The notes beneath the pieces were generated by a model. That model saw only the letters and a program-made list of their open reading frames with translations. It was not told the DNA's origin and searched no databases. Below are positions 39,461 through 53,327 of a stretch of 64,000 bases of DNA, piece after piece; within the stretch, counting starts at the first letter, position 1, and every line of letters begins with the position of its first letter. The stretch comes from Candidatus Electrothrix aestuarii (GTDB lineage: Bacteria; Desulfobacterota; Desulfobulbia; Desulfobulbales; Desulfobulbaceae): positions 2,910,193 to 2,974,192 of the forward strand of contig CP159373.1 in the NCBI GenBank assembly GCA_032595685.2, read 5' to 3'. Position numbers and translations under genes: made by a program.

Positions 39461-39859
39461 ATGGATGCCAAACTGATCTTGCACCACAGCGAAATGTCTG
39501 ACGAGGACATTCAGAAGCTGACTATCGAACTCAAGAACAGTGTTAATCGGGAAACCGACCTGACCGCGCAACTACCCGAGGAAGCAGGTGGTCTTGGTAC
39601 AAAAGGAGATGTGGTCACTATCGGACAGATCATCCTTGCTGCGGTGGGTTCCGGCGGTGCTCTTGCGGCCTTGTTGCCTGTGTTGAGGCTCTATTTTGAG
39701 CGGAAACCAACCCTGCGCATGGAAATTGAGTTGGGCGATGGCAGAAGGGCGATAATCGAGTCGGAGCATCTGCAACCGGCGCAGATACAACAGGCCACAG
39801 AAGCAGTGAGGCAGCTTTTTGAGCAAACTGGCGATAAGGATAATGGCGAAAACGGCTGA
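39461..39859 (+). CDS. EACC1-like (effector-associated constant component) protein
   Basis: A 132-aa protein with an acidic N-terminus (EMSDEDIQKLTIELKNS), a Gly/Ala-rich hydrophobic helix (IGQIILAAVGSGGALAALLPVLRLYF) and a C-terminal beta domain (TLRMEIELGDGRRAIIESEHLQ). This layout and its place directly upstream of a caspase effector match the EACC1 components described in bacterial conflict systems, where a constant partner accompanies variable effectors. The stop overlaps the caspase start by 17 bp. Confidence 0.7.
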   Translation: MDAKLILHHSEMSDEDIQKLTIELKNSVNRETDLTAQLPEEAGGLGTKGDVVTIGQIILAAVGSGGALAALLPVLRLYFERKPTLRMEIELGDGRRAIIESEHLQPAQIQQATEAVRQLFEQTGDKDNGENG

Positions 39860-41450
39860 AAAACGCTACGCAATCCTTATTGCCAGCAGCAGATACCCGG
39901 ATGAACCGGGACTGACCGACCTGCGTTGCCTGGAGAATGATGTTGATGCCCTGGATGCGGTCTTGTGCTCACCTGATTTTGGTGCGTTCACGGAAACCTT
40001 TGTCTTCAAAAATCGGCCCAGCCATGAGGTTCTGGAAAAAATTGAGACTGTCTTGGCTGATGCCGGTCGGGACGATTTGGTGCTCATCTATTTTTCCGGG
40101 CACGGCAAGCTGAACCCGGCAGGCCAGCTCTGTCTTGCTGCGCCAAACACCAAGCTGCGGGCCCTGGGTTCCACCTCTATCCCGGTAGGCTCGATCAAGG
40201 CCTACTTCGATCATTCCGTGAGCCGGAAAAAGGTATTCCTGCTGGACTGCTGCTACAGCGGGGCTGCGGGCAAGTCCTTTATCAAGGGCGGTGACGACCA
40301 ATTGCGGCTCATGTCCCGAGGCCAGGGTACCTTTATCATGACCGCTTCCACAGGTATTGAGGTTGCTGAGGAAAAGGAGGGCGATCAGTACGGGCTGTTT
40401 ACCAAGCATATTGTTGAGGGGATTCGCTCCGGTGAGGCGGATAAGGATGAGGACGGCTTTGTGGACATGCAGGAGCTGTATGAGTATGTCCATGAAAATG
40501 TGCAAAAGGAAGGCGTACAAAAGCCGATGCAGTGGTGGCTTCAGGGGAAGGGGAAGTTGCTGATTGCCAAGAGCGGCAGGGTTGCGAAAGAGAAGCGGCG
40601 GCAGGAGCTGCGGACGAAGCTCTATGAACTGGCTGCGCAGGGTTGGCTGTCAGACGGTATTGTCAGGGCCGCAGTGAATGTTATTTTCTTGCCGGATAAG
40701 GAGATGACGGCCAAAGACAGGGAGTGCCTCCTGCTGATTGAACAGTTTGCTGGTGAGCGGATTAGTGCGGGAAACTTTGTTGAGTGCTGGATGAAGACCT
40801 GTCTTGCGCCGAAATTTCCTCCGCCTCCGAAATCAAAACTGCTCCTTCTCGTTTTTATTCTTGCCGCTGTGTCTTGTGTGGCAGCAGGAGCGGGTTGGTA
40901 TTTTTTCAGGGAACCGTCTCCAGCTCCATTGCCAATGTTGAAAATGGGCAAGGTTTCAGTTTCCTCGCGGACACTTCCTTCTTTGTCACATACAAATTTG
41001 CAACCGCTGTCTCCGCTGCCACTTCCACCGGCAATGGGTACAATTTCAGTCTCCAAAAAGAGAGTCAATTCTTTGCCGCAGATAAAGTTCCAGCCCCTTC
41101 CTAAAGCTGAAAGAATACCTCAGCAAGACAGAACAATCGGCCAATATATTGATCACGGCGATGGTACGGTTACTGACACGAAAACGGGCCTGATGTGGAA
41201 ACGTTGTTCAGAAGGGTTGTCAGGGGGGGATTGTGAAGAAGGAAAGGCGGAAAGATATACATTTGATGAAGCGGTGCAGCGCTTTAAGGATGTTAAATAT
41301 GCAGGTCATGCTGATTTGCGGCTGCCGACCATTGATGAGCTGAAAACCTTGGTGTATTGCAGCGAGGGGAAAGACAAAGAGGGCGACTGCAACGATGGCT
41401 CTGCTGAGCCGACCATCAATCAGCAGGCTTTTCCGAATACTCATTGGGCC

Positions 41451-41572
41451 TACTGGTCCGGGTCGCCCTCTGCGAGCAGCTCGGACCGCGCGTGGCGCGT
41501 CTATTTCAGCAGCGGCAGTTCCAGCATCTACCCCCGCGCCTTCAGCCATGCAGTTCGGTTGGTGCGCGGCGG
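41451..41572 (+). other. Candidate DGR variable region in the caspase-DUF1566 gene
   Basis: The last 40 codons of the DUF1566 domain (YWSGSPSASSSDRAWRVYFS...AVRLVRGG) follow the layout of DGR targets. Fixed residues (W, SGSP, A-W, AVRLVRGG) alternate with positions mostly of NNC codons (AGC, GAC, CGC, TTC, ATC, TAC, CCC), as expected when template AAC codons are mutated at adenines. The segment is clearly GC-richer than the flanking coding DNA. Confidence 0.55.
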
Positions 41573-41868
41573 AAGTGATTTTGCGGGACGGGGAGGTCAT
41601 GAACAGTCTATGATTAAAGATGGAGATCCCGGAGTAGTGTCTCGAGAGGAGTCGAACGTTGCTCCTCTGTCTTCCATTGTTTTTGTTCCCAAGGAACTTC
41701 AAACGTCATCACCCGTGATTGCTCAGGTAGAAAAAAAAGAGAAAGACAGTTTTGCCAAGCGAAGTGATAGTGTTGAGACTAAATCAAGCGGTTCTTCAGT
41801 AACAGATGATAATAAGAGAGAGAGAAGGAGAGTGCTTTCCACTCCGCCTCCATCTATTTCTATAGATA

Positions 41869-43522
41869 GATTGTCCTTAAAAACTCTCAGCGCGCTGATT
41901 TTAAATGAAAAAGTTATAAAAATATTGTAAAATATGCATACTTTTGACGTTCACCCCTCATAAGGCATGCACATGATCAGGTACACCAGTGACAGACAGC
42001 TTACACTTGAAGGATTCAGCCTTCCCTTTGGAGGCAAACTGAACCCTGACAACAGATGGATCAAATGGCATAAAGTTATTCCGTGGGATGAGTTCGCCAT
42101 CAGATATTACCGAACATTGGACCCGCGTCAGGGGCGACCTGCCAAAAATGCCAGATTGGTGATCGGCGCGTTAATCATTAAACATAAGCTGACGCTCAGT
42201 GACGAAGAAACCGTACTCCAGATTCAGGAGAACCCCTATCTTCAGTATTTTGTTGGGTTTTCTTCTTTTCAAGACAAGCAACCTCTAGCTCCGAGCCTGT
42301 TTGTTGAGATTCGAAAACGGATGGGAAAGGATGTCTTTTCTGCGTTTGAAGAAGTGATTTTGGAAAAACTTGCTCTCTCAAAGAAAAGTACGACAAATGA
42401 AGATGAAAAAGAGGATAAGGGTGAGGAAGAGCCCGTTGAAAATAAGGGGAAAATGCTTGTCGATGCAACGGTTGCTGAGCAAGCGATTCGTTACCCGACT
42501 GATCTGAGTTTACTCAACGAAGCTCGTGAGATTTCCGAGCAGCTGATTGATGATCTGTACAAACAGAGTGGCTACCCCAAAAGCCCAGGACATATCGGAG
42601 AGTTGCTCGCAAAAACTACCTGAATCTGGCTAAAAAAAGAAACCAGGCAAAAAAATCTGCGGCGCGGACTTCGGCAGCAATTACAGTACGTCCGAAGAAA
42701 TTTACGATATATTGATGAGTTGCTTGATAATGTTGGATCGGCACCTTTTCCACTTCCCCATCAGCAACAACGACAGTATTGGATCATTCAGCATGTGTAT
42801 CGCCAGCAGGATGAGATGTACAAAAAACGAAAACGACGCTGCGATGACCGAATTGTTTCCATTGCCCAACCTCATGTACGACCAATAGTTCGTGGGAAAG
42901 CAGGTAAAAATGTGGAGTTCGGTGCCAAACTCAGCGTGAGCATGGTCGATGGTTTGGCTTTTGTCGATCATATTGGTTGGGATGCCTTCAACGAAGGCAC
43001 GGATTTGCAGGCGCAGGTGGAAAACTACAAACGCCGAAATGGCTACTATCCTGCTGCAGTGCTTGCTGATCAAATTTACGGAACAAGAGAAAATCGTAAA
43101 TATCTCAAAGAGAAAGGCATTCGATTTGGTGGTAAACGAATGGGCAGGTCCCCGAAAGAGACAGAAGAAAACAAAGAACGTCTTCGGGAACTGAAAGCAC
43201 AACGGATTCGGGATAGTCGAGAACGGATCCCCATTGAGGGGAAATTTGGCCAAGGAAAAAACGGCTACCGACTCAACTACATCCGGGCAAAACTTCAGAG
43301 AACCTCTGAAGCATGGATTAACTGTATTTTCCTGGTCATGAATCTGATGGTTCTGCTCAGGAAGTTGCAGGAACAGCTTGAAAATTTATATCTTTCACGG
43401 TTTTTACTTTTACGCAGCCAGCTGAATCATATTAGCGCTCGATTTTTTGCGTTCTTTGAGCAAATGCCAAGGCAAGTCCTGCAGTATTGCCTGTATGAGA
43501 GGTTGGCTTTTTGAGGATGCTC
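41869..43522 (+). mobile_element. IS5-like insertion sequence, copy 2 (1654 bp)
   Basis: The same element as at 12824-14477, with identical ends (GATTGTCC...GGATGCTC), flanked by the 6-bp duplication TAGATA (41863-41868 and 43523-43528). It lies inside the caspase gene in the same orientation. The two copies differ by very few bases, so transposition is recent. Confidence 0.95.
41967..43514 (+). pseudogene. IS5-like DDE transposase, copy 2, frameshifted
   Basis: It has the same transposase as copy 1. Here the A5 run near 42580 has lost one A (GCTACCCCAAAAGCCC), stopping the first frame at 42623. The shared break after the A7 run also applies. The second frame (42720-43514, 264 aa) is complete to the C-terminus, including the Glu motif IEGKFGQGKNGYRLNYI and INCIFLVMNLMVLL. 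DDE residues are therefore all present across the pieces, but no single frame spans them. Confidence 0.85.
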
Positions 43523-44273: not shown

Positions 44274-45149
44274 ATGAAAGTCGCAAACCCCCTGTACGAT
44301 GTTGTGTTCAAATACCTGATGCAGGATATGCGGGTTGCTAAACTGGTCATATCCAACATCATTGAACAGGAGATCGAATCCCTTGACTTCGCCTTTACCG
44401 AGTTAAACAGAAAACTCCCTGACGGCGGCCTGACCGTGTTGCGGATTGATTTCGCAGCAAAAATACAGGAGCCGGACGGCAACAGCAAGCTTGTTCTTAT
44501 TGAATTGCAGAAGGCCAAATTCCCCACGGATATAACCCGTTTTCGGAAATATCTGGGAAAACAGTATCAGGAGGAGTCCAATATCCACGTGGATGAGAAA
44601 ACCGGAAAAAAGAAGGCTCTGCCCATTATAAGTATTTATATCCTCGGGCATAATCTTCAGCACAATGACAGTCCGGTTATTCATGTGAAAAGAGAGTATT
44701 ACGACCATACCACCAAGGAAAAACTGACCCGGAAAGAAGAGTTTATAGAAAGCCTCACCCATGACAGTTATATCATCCAGGTGGGGAGATTGCGGAAGAA
44801 ACATCGCAACAAATTGGAAACACTGCTGAGTATCTTTGATCAGAGCAATACCAGCAAAGAGAGTAAACATTTTCTTGATGTGCTGGAATCCTCATTTCCC
44901 GATGAATTCAAGGTTGTCATCAGACGTCTGCACAAGGCTTCTGCTAGCAAAGAGCTTTGTGAAGATATGAATATGGAAGATGAGATTTTAGAAGAACTGG
45001 CGATCCAGGAGCGGCTCATAGCTTACGAAAGGGCGGAAAAAGAGAAAGCAGAAGCGGGAAAAGAAAAAGCAGAAATGGAAAAGGAAAAAATGGAAGCAGA
45101 GAAAGCCAGGCTTGAAAAACTCTTGAAACAAGCCGGTATTGAATTTTGA
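44274..45149 (+). CDS. Rpn/PD-(D/E)XK nuclease-family protein
   Basis: A 291-aa protein starting MKVANPLYDVVFKYLMQDMR, typical of the Rpn/PDDEXK_2 transposase-like nuclease family. The core RIDFAAKIQEPDGNSKLVLI followed by ELQK is the D...(E)xQ/K active-site pattern. The C-terminal 50 residues form a charged coiled coil of EKAEAxKEKxExEK units. Proteins of this family promote RecA-independent recombination or act as dormant nucleases, and their C-termini often vary by repeats. AAGGAA precedes the start. Confidence 0.85.
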   Translation: MKVANPLYDVVFKYLMQDMRVAKLVISNIIEQEIESLDFAFTELNRKLPDGGLTVLRIDFAAKIQEPDGNSKLVLIELQKAKFPTDITRFRKYLGKQYQEESNIHVDEKTGKKKALPIISIYILGHNLQHNDSPVIHVKREYYDHTTKEKLTRKEEFIESLTHDSYIIQVGRLRKKHRNKLETLLSIFDQSNTSKESKHFLDVLESSFPDEFKVVIRRLHKASASKELCEDMNMEDEILEELAIQERLIAYERAEKEKAEAGKEKAEMEKEKMEAEKARLEKLLKQAGIEF

Positions 45150-45298: not shown

Positions 45299-48200
45299 AT
45301 GTCTATGCAATGGGTTACACGACTGCACCGAATCGAACACGCCGGTATACCGGTATATATTGACCAGGAAAAACCGGAGTGGTTTGTTCCTTCCACCCGT
45401 ACCGATGATTTGCTCAGGTCCTGTCAAAAACACGGCAATTGGTCCACAGTACTGTCCGAGTTCTGTGAGCGCCATCAGGAAACACCGGATCAGGTCTGTC
45501 GTGACCTGGGACGCTTGGAGCAATTACTGGATCGAGAACGGCCTGCGCCGTATCAGGGGCGTAGCCACCATCTGCGCCTTGGCGCCTTAAAAGAGATCTG
45601 GTTTCATTTAACAGATGCCTGCAATCTCTCCTGCGTCCATTGCCTTTTCTCTGCCTCCCCGAGCAGGAAAGAAAGCATTGATCAGAAGCGTCTTCGTGAT
45701 GCCATTGATCAGGCCACTGCGCTGGGCAGCCATCTCTTTTATTTCACCGGTGGAGAGCCCTTTGTCTACCCTGGTTTCTGCAAGATCATACAATATGTCC
45801 TGGAGCAGAACCCGGCCCATCATGTGGCTATCCTCACCAATGGTCTGCTGCTTGAAAAACATCTTGCCGAGCTGATGGCACTGGATCATGAGCGGATTCA
45901 TCTTCAGGTCAGCCTGGATGGTTTGGAAGAGGAACATGATTTTCTCCGAGGTCCCCAGACCTATAGCAGGCTCTGCGCGAATCTTGGGAGCATAGCCAAA
46001 GAGGGCCTGGCTTTTACCATTTCGGTGGCTGTGAATAATGATAATGTGGATAAGCTGGAGCAGATAGCGATACAGGCCCATGCCCTGGGAGCAGCCGGCC
46101 TGCACTTGATGTATCATTTTGTCCGGGGCAAGGGGACAAGCGGGCAGTTTGTCCCGGTGGTACGCCTGTTCTCCCAGATTGTTAAGGCGGCCAAGGTCTG
46201 TGATAAGCTCGGGATGAAGATTGATAACCTGGAAGCTATGAAGTCCCAGGTCTTTGCTGTTCCCGGTTCCCGGTTTGACCTGACCAATATGGGCTGGGAA
46301 TCCCTGGCTGTGGCCCCGGACGGCACCTTATATCCTTCTCCGGCCCTGATCCGGGTGGAGGAACTGGTTTGCGGGCACCTGGATCATGGATTGAAAACGG
46401 TTTGGCAAAATAATCTCACCCTGCGAAAGATCCGGGCAAGCAGCCAGAGAGATATTGAGCAACGCAAGCGGCGTCCCTTATCGCTGATTACCGGCGGAGG
46501 AGATCCTGATCATTCCTGGGTAAGCGGCCAGAATCTGGTTGGACATGATCCCTATATCGACCTGTATGAGCAACTGGCTTTATTACTTATTACAGATCAG
46601 GCAGCGCGTTATCCTGACCAGGGCCTGTTTCGGCTACGGATGGGCGATGTGCGCCATGATTGCCCGGACACTGAAAACGGCTCTGACGGCTCAGTCAGTC
46701 TGGCCCACTGCAATTGCCTGATCTCTTTAGCAGATAATGATGGACATTCCTCGGTGCGGGAGTTCTACAGTGCTGCGGCCCAGCAGGCCAATCGAGAGAT
46801 TGTTAATCCCTTTCATCCGGCCACAGGTCTGGATAATTATATCCCTGAGGAGGCAAAAGAGAAATCCTATGGCTGTGGAAGTCCGGTTAAGGATGCAGCT
46901 CCGCAAAAGGGGGAGACTCTGGTTGACCTGGGATCAGGCAGTGGGGTGGAGTGTTTTCTCGCCGCAGCGGAGGTTGGGGCCAACGGAAAGGTCTATGGTA
47001 TTGATATGACCGATGCCATGCTGGAGCTTGCCCGCAAATCACAGCAGCATGTGATGACAGACTTGGGCTATGATAATATTGAGTTCCGCAAAGGCTATCT
47101 GGAGGAAATTCCCTTAGAGGAAGCAATAGCAGACGTGGTGATTTCCAACTGTGTGATTAATCTGAGCCCGGATAAGCGTCGAACCTACCTGGAGATTATG
47201 CGGGTGCTCAAGCCTGGTGGGCGTCTGGTGGTCTCTGATGTGGTTAGCGATGAGCAGGTCAATGCCGCGATCAAGAATAGCAGCAAGTACCGTGGTGAGT
47301 GCTTGGGCGGGGCCATGCAGCAGGATGATCTTGTGGCTATGCTGGAGGATTGCGGCTTTGCCTCGGTCTATCTCCATAAGCGCTATCCGTATCGTGAGGT
47401 TGACGGTAACCGTTTTTATTCCCTTACCTATGAGGCGCGCAAGGCTGCCTTGGTTGCAGAGGAAGAGGAGATGGTTCAATGCTTTTTCCGGGGTCCTGAA
47501 CCTGCCTTGGAAACTGCGAGCGGCAGGCGTTTGGAGCGAGGGCGTATGACGGAGCTCTTGCGGCGGGAAGCAGAGCAGCTTGGCGAGCAGGTTTTTATTC
47601 TTGATGCGGAGGGTGCTGTTACGAACATTGCCCAGGAGCCTTGCTGTTGCGGCCTGCCGCCGGGAGAGGCAGGGCAGAAAGAATCCGTCAGTCCTGAGCC
47701 TCTCATTCGTTATCTCAGCGGCTGCATTATCTGCGGCGAGGAGTTGGTCTATCAAAGCGATAGCGGCAGCGATGCTTCCTGCTATTTCTGTGGAGCAGTA
47801 ACCACCACGCCCTGTTCCTGTACTGCCGGGCATTATGTCTGCGACAGATGCCACCAACAGGGAGGTCTGGAGATCATCCACTCGGTGTGCCTGAACAGTA
47901 CAGAAAAGGACATGATCGCCCTGATGGTTCGCATCCGGAACCATCCCTCCGTGCCCATGCACGGGCCGGAGCACCATGCTATGGTCTCCGGAATTATTCT
48001 TGCTGCCTATCGCAATAATGGGGGCAAGATCAGTCAGGATATTATCTCCACCGGGATAGATCGAGGCAGTAATGTACCCGGCGGTGCCTGTGGCTTTTGG
48101 GGCTGCTGCGGTGCAGCTGTCGGGGCGGGTATTGCCGCCTCCTTGATTCTGGAGGCAACGCCGCTCAAGGCAGGTGAACGTCAGGAGGCCTTGTCCTTTA

Positions 48201-48469
48201 CCGCTCGGATTTTGGCCGAGATTGCCGGTATGAAGGGAGGGCGTTGCTGTCAGCGGGATTCCTGGCTGGCCCTGACCCATGCTTCCCGGCTTTCAGAGGA
48301 GTTCTTTGGGTTGTCCTTGCCTGCGGAGGGTATTCTCCGTTGTGGTCAGTATGAAAAGAACCGGGAATGCATGTTCGCAGATTGTCCATTATGGGAAGAT
48401 CGGGAGTGGAAAGAGCGAGGTTGGATGGGAGGGCGGGTCAAAGGCGAGACCCTGCCCGTGATCTCTTAA
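45299..48469 (+). CDS. Radical SAM - SAM methyltransferase - DUF5714 fusion protein
   Basis: A 1056-aa multidomain enzyme. Residues about 1-80 resemble a PqqD-like recognition domain. The radical SAM domain has C108-x3-C112-x2-C115 (CNLSCVHC) and FYFTGGEPFVYP. A SPASM-like tail holds few cysteines. From about 480 there is an ArsM-type methyltransferase: YGCGSPVKDA, VDLGSGSGVECFLAA (about 541) and ISNCVINLSPDK. Residues about 800-1050 are DUF5714, with many Cys (SGCIICGEE, CYFCGAV, CSCTAGHYVCDRC, GGACGFWGCCGAA). It may modify a peptide or metalloid substrate such as arsenic; the substrate is unknown. No precursor peptide gene was found beside it. No clear ribosome binding site is present. Confidence 0.85.
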   Translation: MSMQWVTRLHRIEHAGIPVYIDQEKPEWFVPSTRTDDLLRSCQKHGNWSTVLSEFCERHQETPDQVCRDLGRLEQLLDRERPAPYQGRSHHLRLGALKEIWFHLTDACNLSCVHCLFSASPSRKESIDQKRLRDAIDQATALGSHLFYFTGGEPFVYPGFCKIIQYVLEQNPAHHVAILTNGLLLEKHLAELMALDHERIHLQVSLDGLEEEHDFLRGPQTYSRLCANLGSIAKEGLAFTISVAVNNDNVDKLEQIAIQAHALGAAGLHLMYHFVRGKGTSGQFVPVVRLFSQIVKAAKVCDKLGMKIDNLEAMKSQVFAVPGSRFDLTNMGWESLAVAPDGTLYPSPALIRVEELVCGHLDHGLKTVWQNNLTLRKIRASSQRDIEQRKRRPLSLITGGGDPDHSWVSGQNLVGHDPYIDLYEQLALLLITDQAARYPDQGLFRLRMGDVRHDCPDTENGSDGSVSLAHCNCLISLADNDGHSSVREFYSAAAQQANREIVNPFHPATGLDNYIPEEAKEKSYGCGSPVKDAAPQKGETLVDLGSGSGVECFLAAAEVGANGKVYGIDMTDAMLELARKSQQHVMTDLGYDNIEFRKGYLEEIPLEEAIADVVISNCVINLSPDKRRTYLEIMRVLKPGGRLVVSDVVSDEQVNAAIKNSSKYRGECLGGAMQQDDLVAMLEDCGFASVYLHKRYPYREVDGNRFYSLTYEARKAALVAEEEEMVQCFFRGPEPALETASGRRLERGRMTELLRREAEQLGEQVFILDAEGAVTNIAQEPCCCGLPPGEAGQKESVSPEPLIRYLSGCIICGEELVYQSDSGSDASCYFCGAVTTTPCSCTAGHYVCDRCHQQGGLEIIHSVCLNSTEKDMIALMVRIRNHPSVPMHGPEHHAMVSGIILAAYRNNGGKISQDIISTGIDRGSNVPGGACGFWGCCGAAVGAGIAASLILEATPLKAGERQEALSFTARILAEIAGMKGGRCCQRDSWLALTHASRLSEEFFGLSLPAEGILRCGQYEKNRECMFADCPLWEDREWKERGWMGGRVKGETLPVIS

Positions 48470-49233
48470 CGTTCCTCAATAAGAATGTGCATATCTTTGC
48501 CTTCCTGGGCATGAAGGATAGCATCGCCAGCCTCTGCTGCGACCTGATCATGCCCCCGGACGTTTGAGGGAGGGAAGACAACCGTTACCTTTTTGCCGGT
48601 GGAAAGGCGCTCTATGCTGATAAGTTTTTGCTTGAGGCTGCTGTCTAGCTCAAGGAATGTTTTATCTGTTTTGTCCGTATATCCCTCCATAAAGAAGTCA
48701 TAGACTAAACTGGTGCATAAGGCCGGGCCGTGGATGATTTTGAAATCGCCCTTGACCGGGGTGCTGTCCTTGTAGAGGATGGGCAGGGCCACCTGGAGTG
48801 CCTTATAGGCCCGGGCAGAACCGGGGCAGAGATAGCCGTCTGCCTCAATCAGGTCCGTGAAACTATATGACTTGATCGCACCTTTATCCTGCACCACAAT
48901 AGGTGCTAGGGTTTTCTGCCATGCTGTGGGGTCCCAGCCCCAGAGTGATTGACCGGACTGACGCATCTTTTCCTGCATCATCTTCCGCATCTTAAAGCGA
49001 AACATGTATTCAGAGTCCTGTCCAGGGGCCGCACTGCTCTTCGGTTCAGCAAGAGGGCCAGCGAGCTGGGTGTTCATCTGCGTTTTTGCCGTCATATTTT
49101 TTGCCCTGTTGGCCTGGATCATCTCCTGCTGTTTTTGCTGGATGAAAGAAAGGTTATCTTGGGGCTGGGCCTGGACAAGGGGCGGGCAAAGAAATGTGGA
49201 ACAGAGCAGTATGTGCAGAAGATATTTGTTCAT
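48466..49233 (-). CDS. Exported protein with FmdE-like segment
   Basis: A 255-aa protein with a signal peptide (residues 1-22, ending VQAQ). A Gln/Met/Lys-rich helical stretch follows. The segment FTDLIEADGYLCPGSARAYK resembles the 'HGHlCPGlalGyr' motif of FmdE-type domains, with the first His replaced. The rest (KIIHGPALCTSLVYDF) also fits. It may bind a metal in the periplasm. Its stop overlaps the convergent radical SAM gene by 4 bp. Family assignment is tentative. Confidence 0.6.
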   Translation of the reverse strand: MNKYLLHILLCSTFLCPPLVQAQPQDNLSFIQQKQQEMIQANRAKNMTAKTQMNTQLAGPLAEPKSSAAPGQDSEYMFRFKMRKMMQEKMRQSGQSLWGWDPTAWQKTLAPIVVQDKGAIKSYSFTDLIEADGYLCPGSARAYKALQVALPILYKDSTPVKGDFKIIHGPALCTSLVYDFFMEGYTDKTDKTFLELDSSLKQKLISIERLSTGKKVTVVFPPSNVRGHDQVAAEAGDAILHAQEGKDMHILIEER

Positions 49234-51023: not shown

Positions 51024-51226
51024 GCTTAACCTTCTTGTACAGGTTGTCGGGTGGATCAAACGGATGAAAAAGACGAGAAACGAGAATAAAACAAGTTAGA
51101 ATGATTATCGCCACTCGCGTAATAATATGATACCGTTGTTCCATTTGCCCTACAAGCGTTATTTTGGGCAGCTCTTGGAGCTGGATACCGGATTTTCACC
51201 GTTACAATGATTGCAGGAGGAAAAGC

Positions 51227-53327
51227 ATGGCGCTGGAAGTGTTAACCTTTGTTAAATCATCCTGGATAAAGCCGCTGTGGAAGCAGCTTGGGCGGATGAC
51301 CGGAGAGCGAAAAAAGGAGTTGGACCGTCTGCGGGATGAGTTTGTTGATCCTGAGCAGCTCCGGGGGCTGTACATCGAGCCCTATCTCCAGGACCGTAAT
51401 CCGGCGGACAGCCATCAGGATGACTTGGTTTCAGCGGCCCAGCAGCTGGCCTTTGAGCGAATCAACGGCTTCTTTCGTGGGGAGCTACCGTTGGAAAAGG
51501 ATGGCCGTCACCAGATGTTCATTCTCTCTGATGCTGGCATGGGCAAGACCTCCTTGTTGCTCATGATCAAGCTCATGCATTTGACCAATTTCTGGCCGAC
51601 CAGGATTAACTGTGCCTTGTTTAAGCTGGGCGAGGATACCCTGGAACGGGTGCAGGCTCTGCCCAAAAAGGGCGAGACTATACTCCTGCTGGATGCGTTG
51701 GATGAAGATCCCAAGGCCTGGAAGCGGATTAAGGAACGCCTGTTGGAGCTCTTGCAGGCCAGTGAGGACTTTCGGCGGGTGGTTATCTCCAGCCGCACGC
51801 AGTTCTTCCCGGAAATGGAGCCGGATCGGCTCGGTCGACCGGAGATCAAGGTGCTGTCCGGCTATCATTGCCCGGTGCTCTATCTTTCTCCCTTTAACGA
51901 TGAACAGGTGCAGGAGTTCATTGAGAGGAAGTTACCTCTGCGTTGGTATCATTTCAGTTTTCAGTTTTCAATATGGACAGGTGAAAAAGGACCGCGAAAA
52001 GGCGGTTTGTCTGCTCGGGCATATGCAGGATTTGCGCATGCGGCCTATGCTTTTGCAGCATATCGACAAGCTCCTTGCAGCGGAGTGCAAGCAGGAGTGG
52101 AATGCCTACACGGTGTACGAGGCCTTGGTTGATGAGTGGCTGGATCGTGAGGTGCGTAAACTGCGGAAGTGGGGTGGCCGACGGATACCCGGGCGTAAGG
52201 AACTCTTCCAGGCCTGCCTGCGGATTGCGGAGCGGATGCAGCGGCTGGGGACCCGGATTATATCGGAGGATGCCTTGAAGGCGCTGATTGGTGAGAATGA
52301 GAACATTGCCTGGCTGGAGAAGTTTGAATTGGGCGGGCGTTCTTTGCTGAATCGTAATTCTGACCGGGCCTTTCGTTTCAGTCATTATACTATTCAGGAG
52401 TTTCTGCTGGCTTGGGGGGTGGTGAATGAACAGCTTACCGGGAAGGAGCTGTTACGGGCTACAGACCAGTTGGTTCGGTTCATTGTATTGGCGCAATATC
52501 TCCAGAAGTGTCAGTGCTATATTGATTTTTCAGGGTTTAACTTGCAAGGGTATGTTGACTCGTATGGAGTGTTGTCTTTCCAGGATAGGTTGAGCAATGG
52601 AGTTCAGGGGGCAGAAGTGGTCATGCTACCCGGTGGGCATTTTCAGATGGGGGATGAGGAAAATGGTCCGATACATAAGGTGGAGTTAGATAGCTTTGCC
52701 ATTGGTCGCTACCCGGTGACCTTTGCGGAATACGATGTTTTTTGTGAGGTGAACGAGCGAGAGAAACCGGATGATGAGGGTTGGGGGAGAGGGCATCGAC
52801 CAGTAATCAATGTCAGCTGGCAGGATGCGGTAGATTACTGCCATTGGTTGAGCCTGGAAACCGGGCAGACCTATCGTCTGCCTACCGAGGCAGAGTGGGA
52901 ATACGCCTGTCGGGCTGGCTCTGAATCGGCTTGGTGTTTTGGTGACGATGAGGCCTTGCTAGGAGAATATGCCTGGTACGAGAAGAATTCCGATATGAAG
53001 ACGCACCCGGTCGGAGGAAGGGAGACCAATGCTTGGGGTCTCCACGATATGCACGGCAATGTCTGGGAGTGGTGTCAGGATTGGTATAACAGTGGGTATT
53101 ATGCTGAATGTCAGAAGCAGGGGGTGGTGAAGAATCCACAGGGGGCGTTGAAGTCCGATGAGCCCGGCGGGGATCGGGTCATTCGCGGCGGCTCGTGGCT
53201 CGACTTGGCGCGGGACTGTCGTTCTGCCTACCGGCGCAGGCGCGGGCCTGACTACCGCTTCGGCATTCTCGGTTTTCGCTGTGCCCGAGTTCAGGGTGAG
53301 CCGGGCAAGAAGCCGGAGGCCGAGTAA
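51227..53327 (+). pseudogene. NACHT ATPase - FGE-like lectin protein, copy 1, frameshifted
   Basis: AGGAGG precedes ATG 51227. Frame 1 encodes a NACHT-type NTPase: P-loop SDAGMGKTS (101-109), Walker [13 protein letters not shown] and [13 protein letters not shown]. It stops early at 52132. The homologous sequence continues one base over from about 51950 ([20 protein letters not shown] onward) to a stop at 53327. The shifted frame holds a helical region and a formylglycine-generating-enzyme-like C-type-lectin domain ([50 protein letters not shown]). Joined, it would be about 700 aa, like the paralogue at 54366. A surplus base between about 51945 and 51990 explains the break; it may be real or a sequencing error. 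Confidence 0.88.
53178..53288 (+). other. Candidate DGR variable region, NACHT copy 1
   Basis: The last 37 codons ([20 protein letters not shown] ... [10 protein letters not shown]) align with the usual DGR target ending '[35 protein letters not shown]'. At the expected Asn positions the codons are CTC, GAC, GAC, TAC, TAC, TTC, GGC and CTC, which keep the third-base C of AAC. The neighbouring fixed residues are conserved. Confidence 0.6.

Follow-up and report, generated by a model that had tools for sequence, protein, structure and literature searches.

Why would a bacterium join a radical S-adenosylmethionine (SAM) enzyme, an ArsM-like methyltransferase and a DUF5714 domain in one polypeptide? 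The question is raised by a gene at positions 45,299 to 48,469 of the 64,000-nucleotide stretch of Candidatus Electrothrix aestuarii DNA analysed here (the window). The gene is one open frame of 1056 residues, translated from an ATG start without an internal stop, as the first-pass annotation of the window had proposed. We put the chance at roughly 55% that it encodes an organoarsenical synthase in which one polypeptide does the work of ArsM and ArsS together and feeds an arsenosugar-type pathway. The Met at residue 3 may be the real start, because several relatives begin at the matching position. The parts of the gene are listed below by position in the window; counts refer to a family alignment of 47 distinct frames, and RRE denotes the recognition element of ribosomally synthesized and post-translationally modified peptides (RiPPs).

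45299..48469, + strand: whole gene (1056 aa), a fusion of RRE-like, radical SAM, SPASM-like, ArsM, Cys-ribbon and DUF5714 parts
45299..45574, + strand: putative N-terminal RRE domain (PqqD-like), covering about residues 1-92 (model alignment with 5wgg and 8vpo)
45608..46069, + strand: radical SAM core, residues 104-257 (Pfam PF04055, 5e-20)
45620..45643, + strand: CNLSCVHC, the CxxxCxxC [4Fe-4S] motif, residues 108-115 (Cys invariant, 47/47)
46289..46444, + strand: SPASM-like segment without cluster cysteines, residues 331-382 (Pfam SPASM, below cut-off)
46451..46828, + strand: post-SPASM linker domain (residues 385-510) carrying GGGDxDH and the invariant Cys455 and Cys473 (alignment)
46835..47446, + strand: ArsM methyltransferase core, residues 513-716 (NF008823, PDB 5evj, fold match)
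46874..46876, + strand: Cys526, counterpart of Cys72 in algal ArsM (aligned to the 4kw7 Cys; invariant, 47/47)
47150..47152, + strand: Cys618 (SNCVINL), counterpart of the second arsenic ligand of ArsM (alignment; invariant, 47/47)
47300..47302, + strand: Cys668 (GECLGGA), counterpart of the third arsenic ligand, C224, of ArsM (alignment; invariant, 47/47)
47447..47650, + strand: ArsM C-terminal region, residues 717-784, with CCC at its end (NF040538; Cys784 in 47/47)
47723..47854, + strand: Cys/His ribbon, residues 809-852, with seven invariant Cys (alignment)
47876..48394, + strand: DUF5714, residues 860-1032, with HGPExH and seven conserved Cys (Pfam, 204 bits)

The fusion is a true conserved architecture and not an assembly artefact, because 47 distinct long frames, the window's included, align along the protein; the others are 38-81% identical to the window protein. 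The domain order is as the first-pass annotation described it, though what it called unusual belongs to a conserved family and is not peculiar to this genome. The alignment holds 48 rows, two of them identical (L063 and L157; loci are numbered L and genomes G), and consists of frames of 980-1150 residues free of X. Partial and split members, L147 and L168 were left out, L168 by hand (its gene is 99% identical to the window's). Split frames, broken at ArsM/DUF5714 in L137 and L144 and at radical SAM/ArsM in L145, are not counted as support, because overlapping frames may be either split genes or assembly frameshifts. Identity to the window gene is 78% in Candidatus Electrothrix aarhusensis, 73% in E. 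gigas, 77% in the metagenome-assembled genome at L061, and 42-67% in other named full-length relatives. Cysteines 108, 112, 115, 455, 473, 526, 552, 618, 668 and 784 are invariant (47/47), as are 809, 812, 828, 831, 841, 848 and 851 in the ribbon; Cys931, 937, 983, 984, 1015, 1024 and 1029 of DUF5714 are kept in each of the 46 rows long enough to include them, the frame of L170 ending early inside that domain. Within the order, 24 of 57 genomes carry a family frame of at least 900 residues (hand count; the frame of G055 has one TGA). Across a phylum sample, DUF5714 occurs in 53 of 395 genomes, and 33 of these were assigned to the fusion family, 30 by a single frame of at least 900 residues and three with a frame that is interrupted or runs off a contig (G052, G207 and G310). 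Selenocysteine was considered for the fusion and rejected: TGA read-through over 63 loci placed a U in two only, L119 (at its extreme end) and L144 (close to a frame break), so no recoded active site is evident.

The methyltransferase part points to arsenic. The motifs GSGSG and NCVINLSPDK lie in it where the first-pass annotation had placed them, Pfam assigns residues 536-683 to Methyltransf_31 (3e-34), and the top NCBIfam match of the window protein is arsenite methyltransferase NF008823 (region 513-708), at 227.2 bits, or 230.1 in a genome-wide search, against a cut-off of 263. No NCBIfam profile reached its cut-off in the 25 best of 106 matches to the window protein or among the matches listed for three relatives. 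For NF040538 the best stretch spans residues 608-784 against profile positions 169-355 of 356, and the closest PDB entries by sequence are ArsM structures (5evj, 4e-36). The predicted full-length model (predicted local distance difference test score, pLDDT, 74.8; predicted template modelling score 0.65; 16-row alignment) is weak at residues 455-481 among other places; its confidence is moderate, and we use it for domain folds only, not for contacts between domains. In VIA comparisons it matched ArsM structures with Z about 25 over 209-221 residues (4fr0: Z 25.3, 214 residues, root-mean-square deviation 2.0). All three arsenic-ligand cysteines are present on this class I methyltransferase fold in 47 of 47 frames: Cys526 aligns with the 4kw7 cysteine that becomes Ala in the C72A mutant 5eg5, Cys618 lies opposite the second ligand, which we take to be C174, and Cys668 aligns with the cysteine mutated in 5jx7 (C224A). 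The fusion is also the sole strong ArsM match in its own genome (230 bits; the runner-up has 72 bits). Given the conserved ligands, the ArsM fold and the lack of another strong match in the genome, arsenic is the likely substrate, and the earlier label 'ArsM-like' is strongly supported. The module has in common with ArsM proteins (NF008823; 4fs8, 5evj, 8xt7) the fold, the three ligands and the SNCVINL and GECLGGA motifs; unlike them, it is flanked in one polypeptide by a radical SAM part and DUF5714, and its 227-230 bits stay below 263.

The radical SAM part is not an ArsS, contrary to what the first-pass annotation had suggested. Six fusion frames scored 57-62 bits against the TIGR04167 cut-off of 300 in the frames listed, matching only the core (model positions 2-150 of 303), and the best TIGR04167 match in the window's own genome (E 7e-14) is below cut-off. 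Compared directly with one ArsS, the radical SAM part is 24% identical over 143 residues. ArsS proteins are standalone, about 330 residues long, and those compared carry two C-terminal motifs, CDFN and one of the HCxxCxAGxGSxC type (in L194 a stop codon interrupts the latter, and L225 is truncated there); both motifs are absent from the window protein and from the corresponding stretches of 17 aligned rows. The stop codon of L194 (G349) coincides with the final Cys of the GSSC-type motif, the pattern that selenoprotein forms would show, and many ArsS frames in the phylum carry one in-frame TGA. What the fusion shares with ArsS is the radical SAM core, co-occurrence with the glycosyltransferase family TIGR04283 and the same kinds of accessory neighbours.

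This co-occurrence was counted in the sample of 395 genomes. Because a limit of E 0.001 matches nearly every genome (395 of 395 for TIGR04167, 394 for TIGR04283), we counted ArsS over its curated cut-off and TIGR04283 at E ≤1e-40; ArsS was then found in 119 genomes and TIGR04283 in 186 (167 over its curated cut-off). The fusion is accompanied by TIGR04283 in 31 of 33 genomes, where 15.5 are expected (Fisher p 3e-9). When TIGR04283 was shuffled within the 18 families that hold the fusion, the observed 31 still exceeded the mean of 24.7 (p 6e-5). In the nine families that are mixed for the fusion, TIGR04283 occurs in 15 of 16 fusion genomes vs. 9 of 43 others; of these nine, four have ArsS, and the fusion may be hidden in two more (G259 and G329), because their DUF5714 sits at a contig end. 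ArsS itself is paired with TIGR04283 in 112 of its 119 genomes. Just one of the 33 fusion genomes also has ArsS, where 9.9 would be expected (p 1e-4, without correction for family), and this genome, G399, was assigned to the fusion by the length of a 988-residue frame alone. Among the 186 genomes with TIGR04283, 31 have the fusion and 112 ArsS, with one genome in both groups and 44 in neither (exclusivity p 3e-13, not family-corrected). A separate test of eight genomes found TIGR04283 over its cut-off in seven, namely all six named full-fusion genomes and L106, and not in L075. The window's own genome has TIGR04283 over cut-off (E 2e-72), about 1.8 Mb from the window and adjoining a DUF2064 gene, presumably of the TIGR04282 type.

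Gene neighbourhoods show a similar trend. We scored as markers TIGR04282, TIGR04283, a TVP38/VTT-domain protein, a MerA-like reductase using flavin adenine dinucleotide (FAD), DUF3047 and a family that we take to be DUF547. At least one marker was present at 21 of the 52 fusion loci and at 14 of the 26 ArsS loci; the 20 control stretches and the 14 loci with a standalone DUF5714 had none. The queries were proteins of fusion loci L070, L116, L124 and L133 and of ArsS locus L183. These five loci match by construction, and leaving them out gives 17 of 48 and 13 of 25. The controls are other stretches of fusion genomes, and the ArsS loci represent 26 of the 119 genomes; both sets and the fusion loci were hand-picked and differ in length. 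A lone ArsS match at L130 was taken as the fusion's own radical SAM part, because that genome has no ArsS over cut-off. At L116, TIGR04283, TIGR04282, the fusion, TVP38 and the FAD reductase follow one another on one strand. Because the fusion is nearly exclusive with ArsS, co-occurs with TIGR04283 and has neighbours common to ArsS loci, we read it as an ArsS substitute; this suggests that the fusion replaces ArsS in many sulfate-reducing relatives. The earlier proposal of a self-contained arsenic pathway enzyme thus gains from genome context, while its ArsS-type radical SAM component does not stand.

Where, then, might the radical SAM part have come from? Its CxxxCxxC motif, present in 47 of 47 frames, and a core match well over the PF04055 cut-off (72.8 bits vs. 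29.5) place it in the radical SAM superfamily, in line with the first-pass annotation. Model residues 7-438 align with 5wgg (Z 28.1, 406 residues, root-mean-square deviation 4.0, 19% identity), which we take to be the sactipeptide maturase CteB, and residues 1-442 align with TigE (8vpo; Z 25.7); both are presumably RRE-bearing maturases. The PqqD-like N-terminal segment noted earlier is supported by this alignment in one model and not by sequence, since it has no Pfam match above noise and no other sequence-family match. The SPASM segment scores 18 bits against a cut-off of 21.5, no CxxC occurs within residues 260-450 in any of the 48 rows, and 25 of them have at most one Cys there. In L075, however, C-x2-C-x5-C (CGTCELKFLC) lies opposite window residues 389-398. 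Because L075 keeps the SPASM cysteines that the fusion rows lack, the ancestor of the radical SAM part was probably a SPASM enzyme whose auxiliary clusters have since been lost. L075 (4508-7531, Acidobacteria) is itself a radical SAM-ArsM fusion, without DUF5714 in the stretch and with its SPASM cysteines intact, and its open frame begins with a fragment that by eye resembles the N-terminus of a MerA-like reductase. At L106 (2014-3724, Candidatus Manganitrophaceae), an RRE-like part and a post-SPASM linker appear by eye on an ArsM without a radical SAM core, and the contig stops inside ArsM.

The likeness to the RRE-bearing SPASM maturases (RRE-like domain, radical SAM core and SPASM-like fold, Z 26-28) could mean that the fusion is a RiPP maturase or makes an arsenic-containing peptide, with the RRE-like domain binding a leader, the radical SAM core modifying the peptide and ArsM adding a methyl group or arsenic. 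An RRE-like domain does leave room for a peptide or carrier partner. Unlike 5wgg and 8vpo, however, the window protein lacks the SPASM cluster cysteines and has no precursor gene that we could find: among 1720 small frames within 1.5 kb of the 52 loci, only frames overlapping or antisense to larger conserved neighbours recur in the ten clusters listed, and a distant gene is possible. The neighbours, moreover, match those of ArsS loci. We consider a RiPP product very improbable, and the peptide-derived product that the first-pass annotation had offered as an option has lost support. The loss of the SPASM cysteines would favour an enzyme that only methylates arsenic: ArsM would detoxify As(III), and the radical SAM part and DUF5714 would act in sensing, electron transfer or regulation instead of making a C-As bond of a second type. 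The intact ArsM ligands would suit this account, as would the arrangement at L106, with no radical SAM core between RRE-like part and ArsM. It is nevertheless unlikely, as the CxxxCxxC motif is invariant, and a fusion that almost never shares a genome with ArsS but pairs with TIGR04283 calls for an ArsS-like step.

DUF5714 raises the further question of whether the substrate is another metalloid or metal, such as selenium, antimony or mercury. The Cys-rich C-terminal end that the first-pass annotation assigned to this domain matches PF18978 over profile positions 1-173 of 173, far above the cut-off of 26.2 bits. Its modelled fold (pLDDT 77) had no usable match (best Foldseek E 0.23, best VIA Z 4.5), which does not imply a new fold. 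DUF5714 is common to the selenoprotein MbdU, and the fusion's module matches NF045648 (MbdU) with 129.3 bits, well short of the cut-off of 600; the two selenocysteines of MbdU are not found in the window frame, which has no in-frame TGA. MbdU and TrsS belong to the selenoprotein literature, with table rows in PMC13188914; we found no paper naming DUF5714 in the open PMC literature. A standalone DUF5714 gene lies directly 3' of the gene for the radical SAM (seleno)protein TrsS (548 bits) at L140 (7177-9292), and another directly follows a TrsS-like radical SAM gene at L141 (6814-8917); both are 50% identical to the fusion's module. DUF5714 may pair with radical SAM enzymes repeatedly. These systems have the DUF5714 module and, in L140, the radical SAM partner TrsS in common with the window protein; they differ in that the window protein is fused. 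Conservation of all three ArsM ligands, the low MbdU score and a phylum profile that tracks ArsS and TIGR04283 make another metalloid improbable.

The checks proposed by the first-pass annotation agree on the parts: the domain-architecture search with Pfam and NCBIfam recovered radical SAM, ArsM-like and DUF5714 regions, and the structural model returned the ArsM fold and an N-terminal half resembling 5wgg and 8vpo. How might these parts work together? PMC12159101 describes radical SAM enzymes that adenosylate arsenic in oxo-arsenosugar biosynthesis, for which its reference list names ArsS, and that, in arsinothricin biosynthesis, move a 3-amino-3-carboxypropyl group to arsenic. Because radical SAM enzymes alkylate arsenic and the fusion fills the place of ArsS, we propose methylation followed by radical alkylation. 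To judge from homology and the invariant ligands, the ArsM module would bind As(III) through Cys526, Cys618 and Cys668 and methylate it with SAM. The radical SAM module, whose CxxxCxxC is the sole recognisable cluster motif, would then cleave SAM and transfer part of it, by analogy with ArsS most likely the 5'-deoxyadenosyl group, to the methylated arsenic, perhaps held by Cys455 and Cys473. The Cys-ribbon and DUF5714 could hold or reduce the trivalent arsenical between sites, or carry a metal centre. The product would pass to the TIGR04282 and TIGR04283 glycosyltransferases, which are adjacent in some relatives and elsewhere in the window's own genome.

Several observations weigh against an organoarsenical synthase that replaces ArsS. 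The arsenic substrate is argued by homology, and the radical step is a guess from genome context alone; the radical SAM part resembles ArsS only in the core. The RRE-like domain has no role in the proposed mechanism. Of the 186 genomes with TIGR04283, 44 lack both the fusion and an ArsS over cut-off, and these may use a third enzyme; two of the 33 fusion genomes (G277 and G417) lack TIGR04283. The word 'arsenosugar' in the names of TIGR04282 and TIGR04283 is an NCBIfam label only. Because the genomes are related and the loci hand-picked, the p-values are rough. Glycosyltransferases lie near only 9 of 52 fusion loci, no marker gene adjoins the fusion in the window, and just 2 of the 26 ArsS loci have an ArsM nearby. 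The window's own genome gave no Acr3 match and a single ArsB-family match of 56 bits; we regard this arsenic-resistance context as neutral.

Around the fusion in the window, a scan for promoters and terminators at the gene gave no excess over shuffled sequence. A convergent gene (48466-49233, - strand) encodes a seemingly exported protein without a Pfam or NCBIfam match, presumably vaguely FmdE-like, and lies beside the fusion in five Electrothrix-group loci. Upstream, 44274-45149 (+ strand) belongs to a family without a Pfam match; relatives carry several copies of it in front of their fusion genes (two in L155, four in L156), and its product is probably a mobile-element nuclease. Farther away are a gene with an EACC1-type caspase and an Lcl_C domain (39819-41930, + strand), behind which two frames (41967-43514) make up an IS5-family transposase, and a frame (51164-52132, + strand) whose match to EruA, a NACHT antiphage protein, is weak (28 bits; cut-off 1000).

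The modules are each known; their assembly and the role as ArsS substitute appear undescribed in the open PMC literature, where we found no paper combining ArsM, radical SAM, fusion and arsenic. Tentatively, and at less than even odds, we suggest a second, independently evolved route to carbon-arsenic bonds. In this view a peptide maturase of the SPASM type lost its auxiliary clusters and became joined to ArsM and DUF5714; in cable bacteria and anaerobic sulfate reducers it would now produce organoarsenicals that are adenosylated, or alkylated from SAM in another way, and would fully replace ArsS. Its RRE-like domain may deliver the arsenical from a carrier. If the fusion is such a synthase, it would offer a one-enzyme system for the hand-over of a methylated arsenical to a radical SAM site, and DUF5714 would enter arsenic biochemistry. 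Surveys for ArsS only would miss producers, as the fusion occurs without ArsS in 32 of the 151 genomes of our sample that have either. Two non-orthologous radical enzymes would then serve arsenosugar-type metabolism, the second of them carried by anaerobic sediment bacteria that include the cable bacteria.

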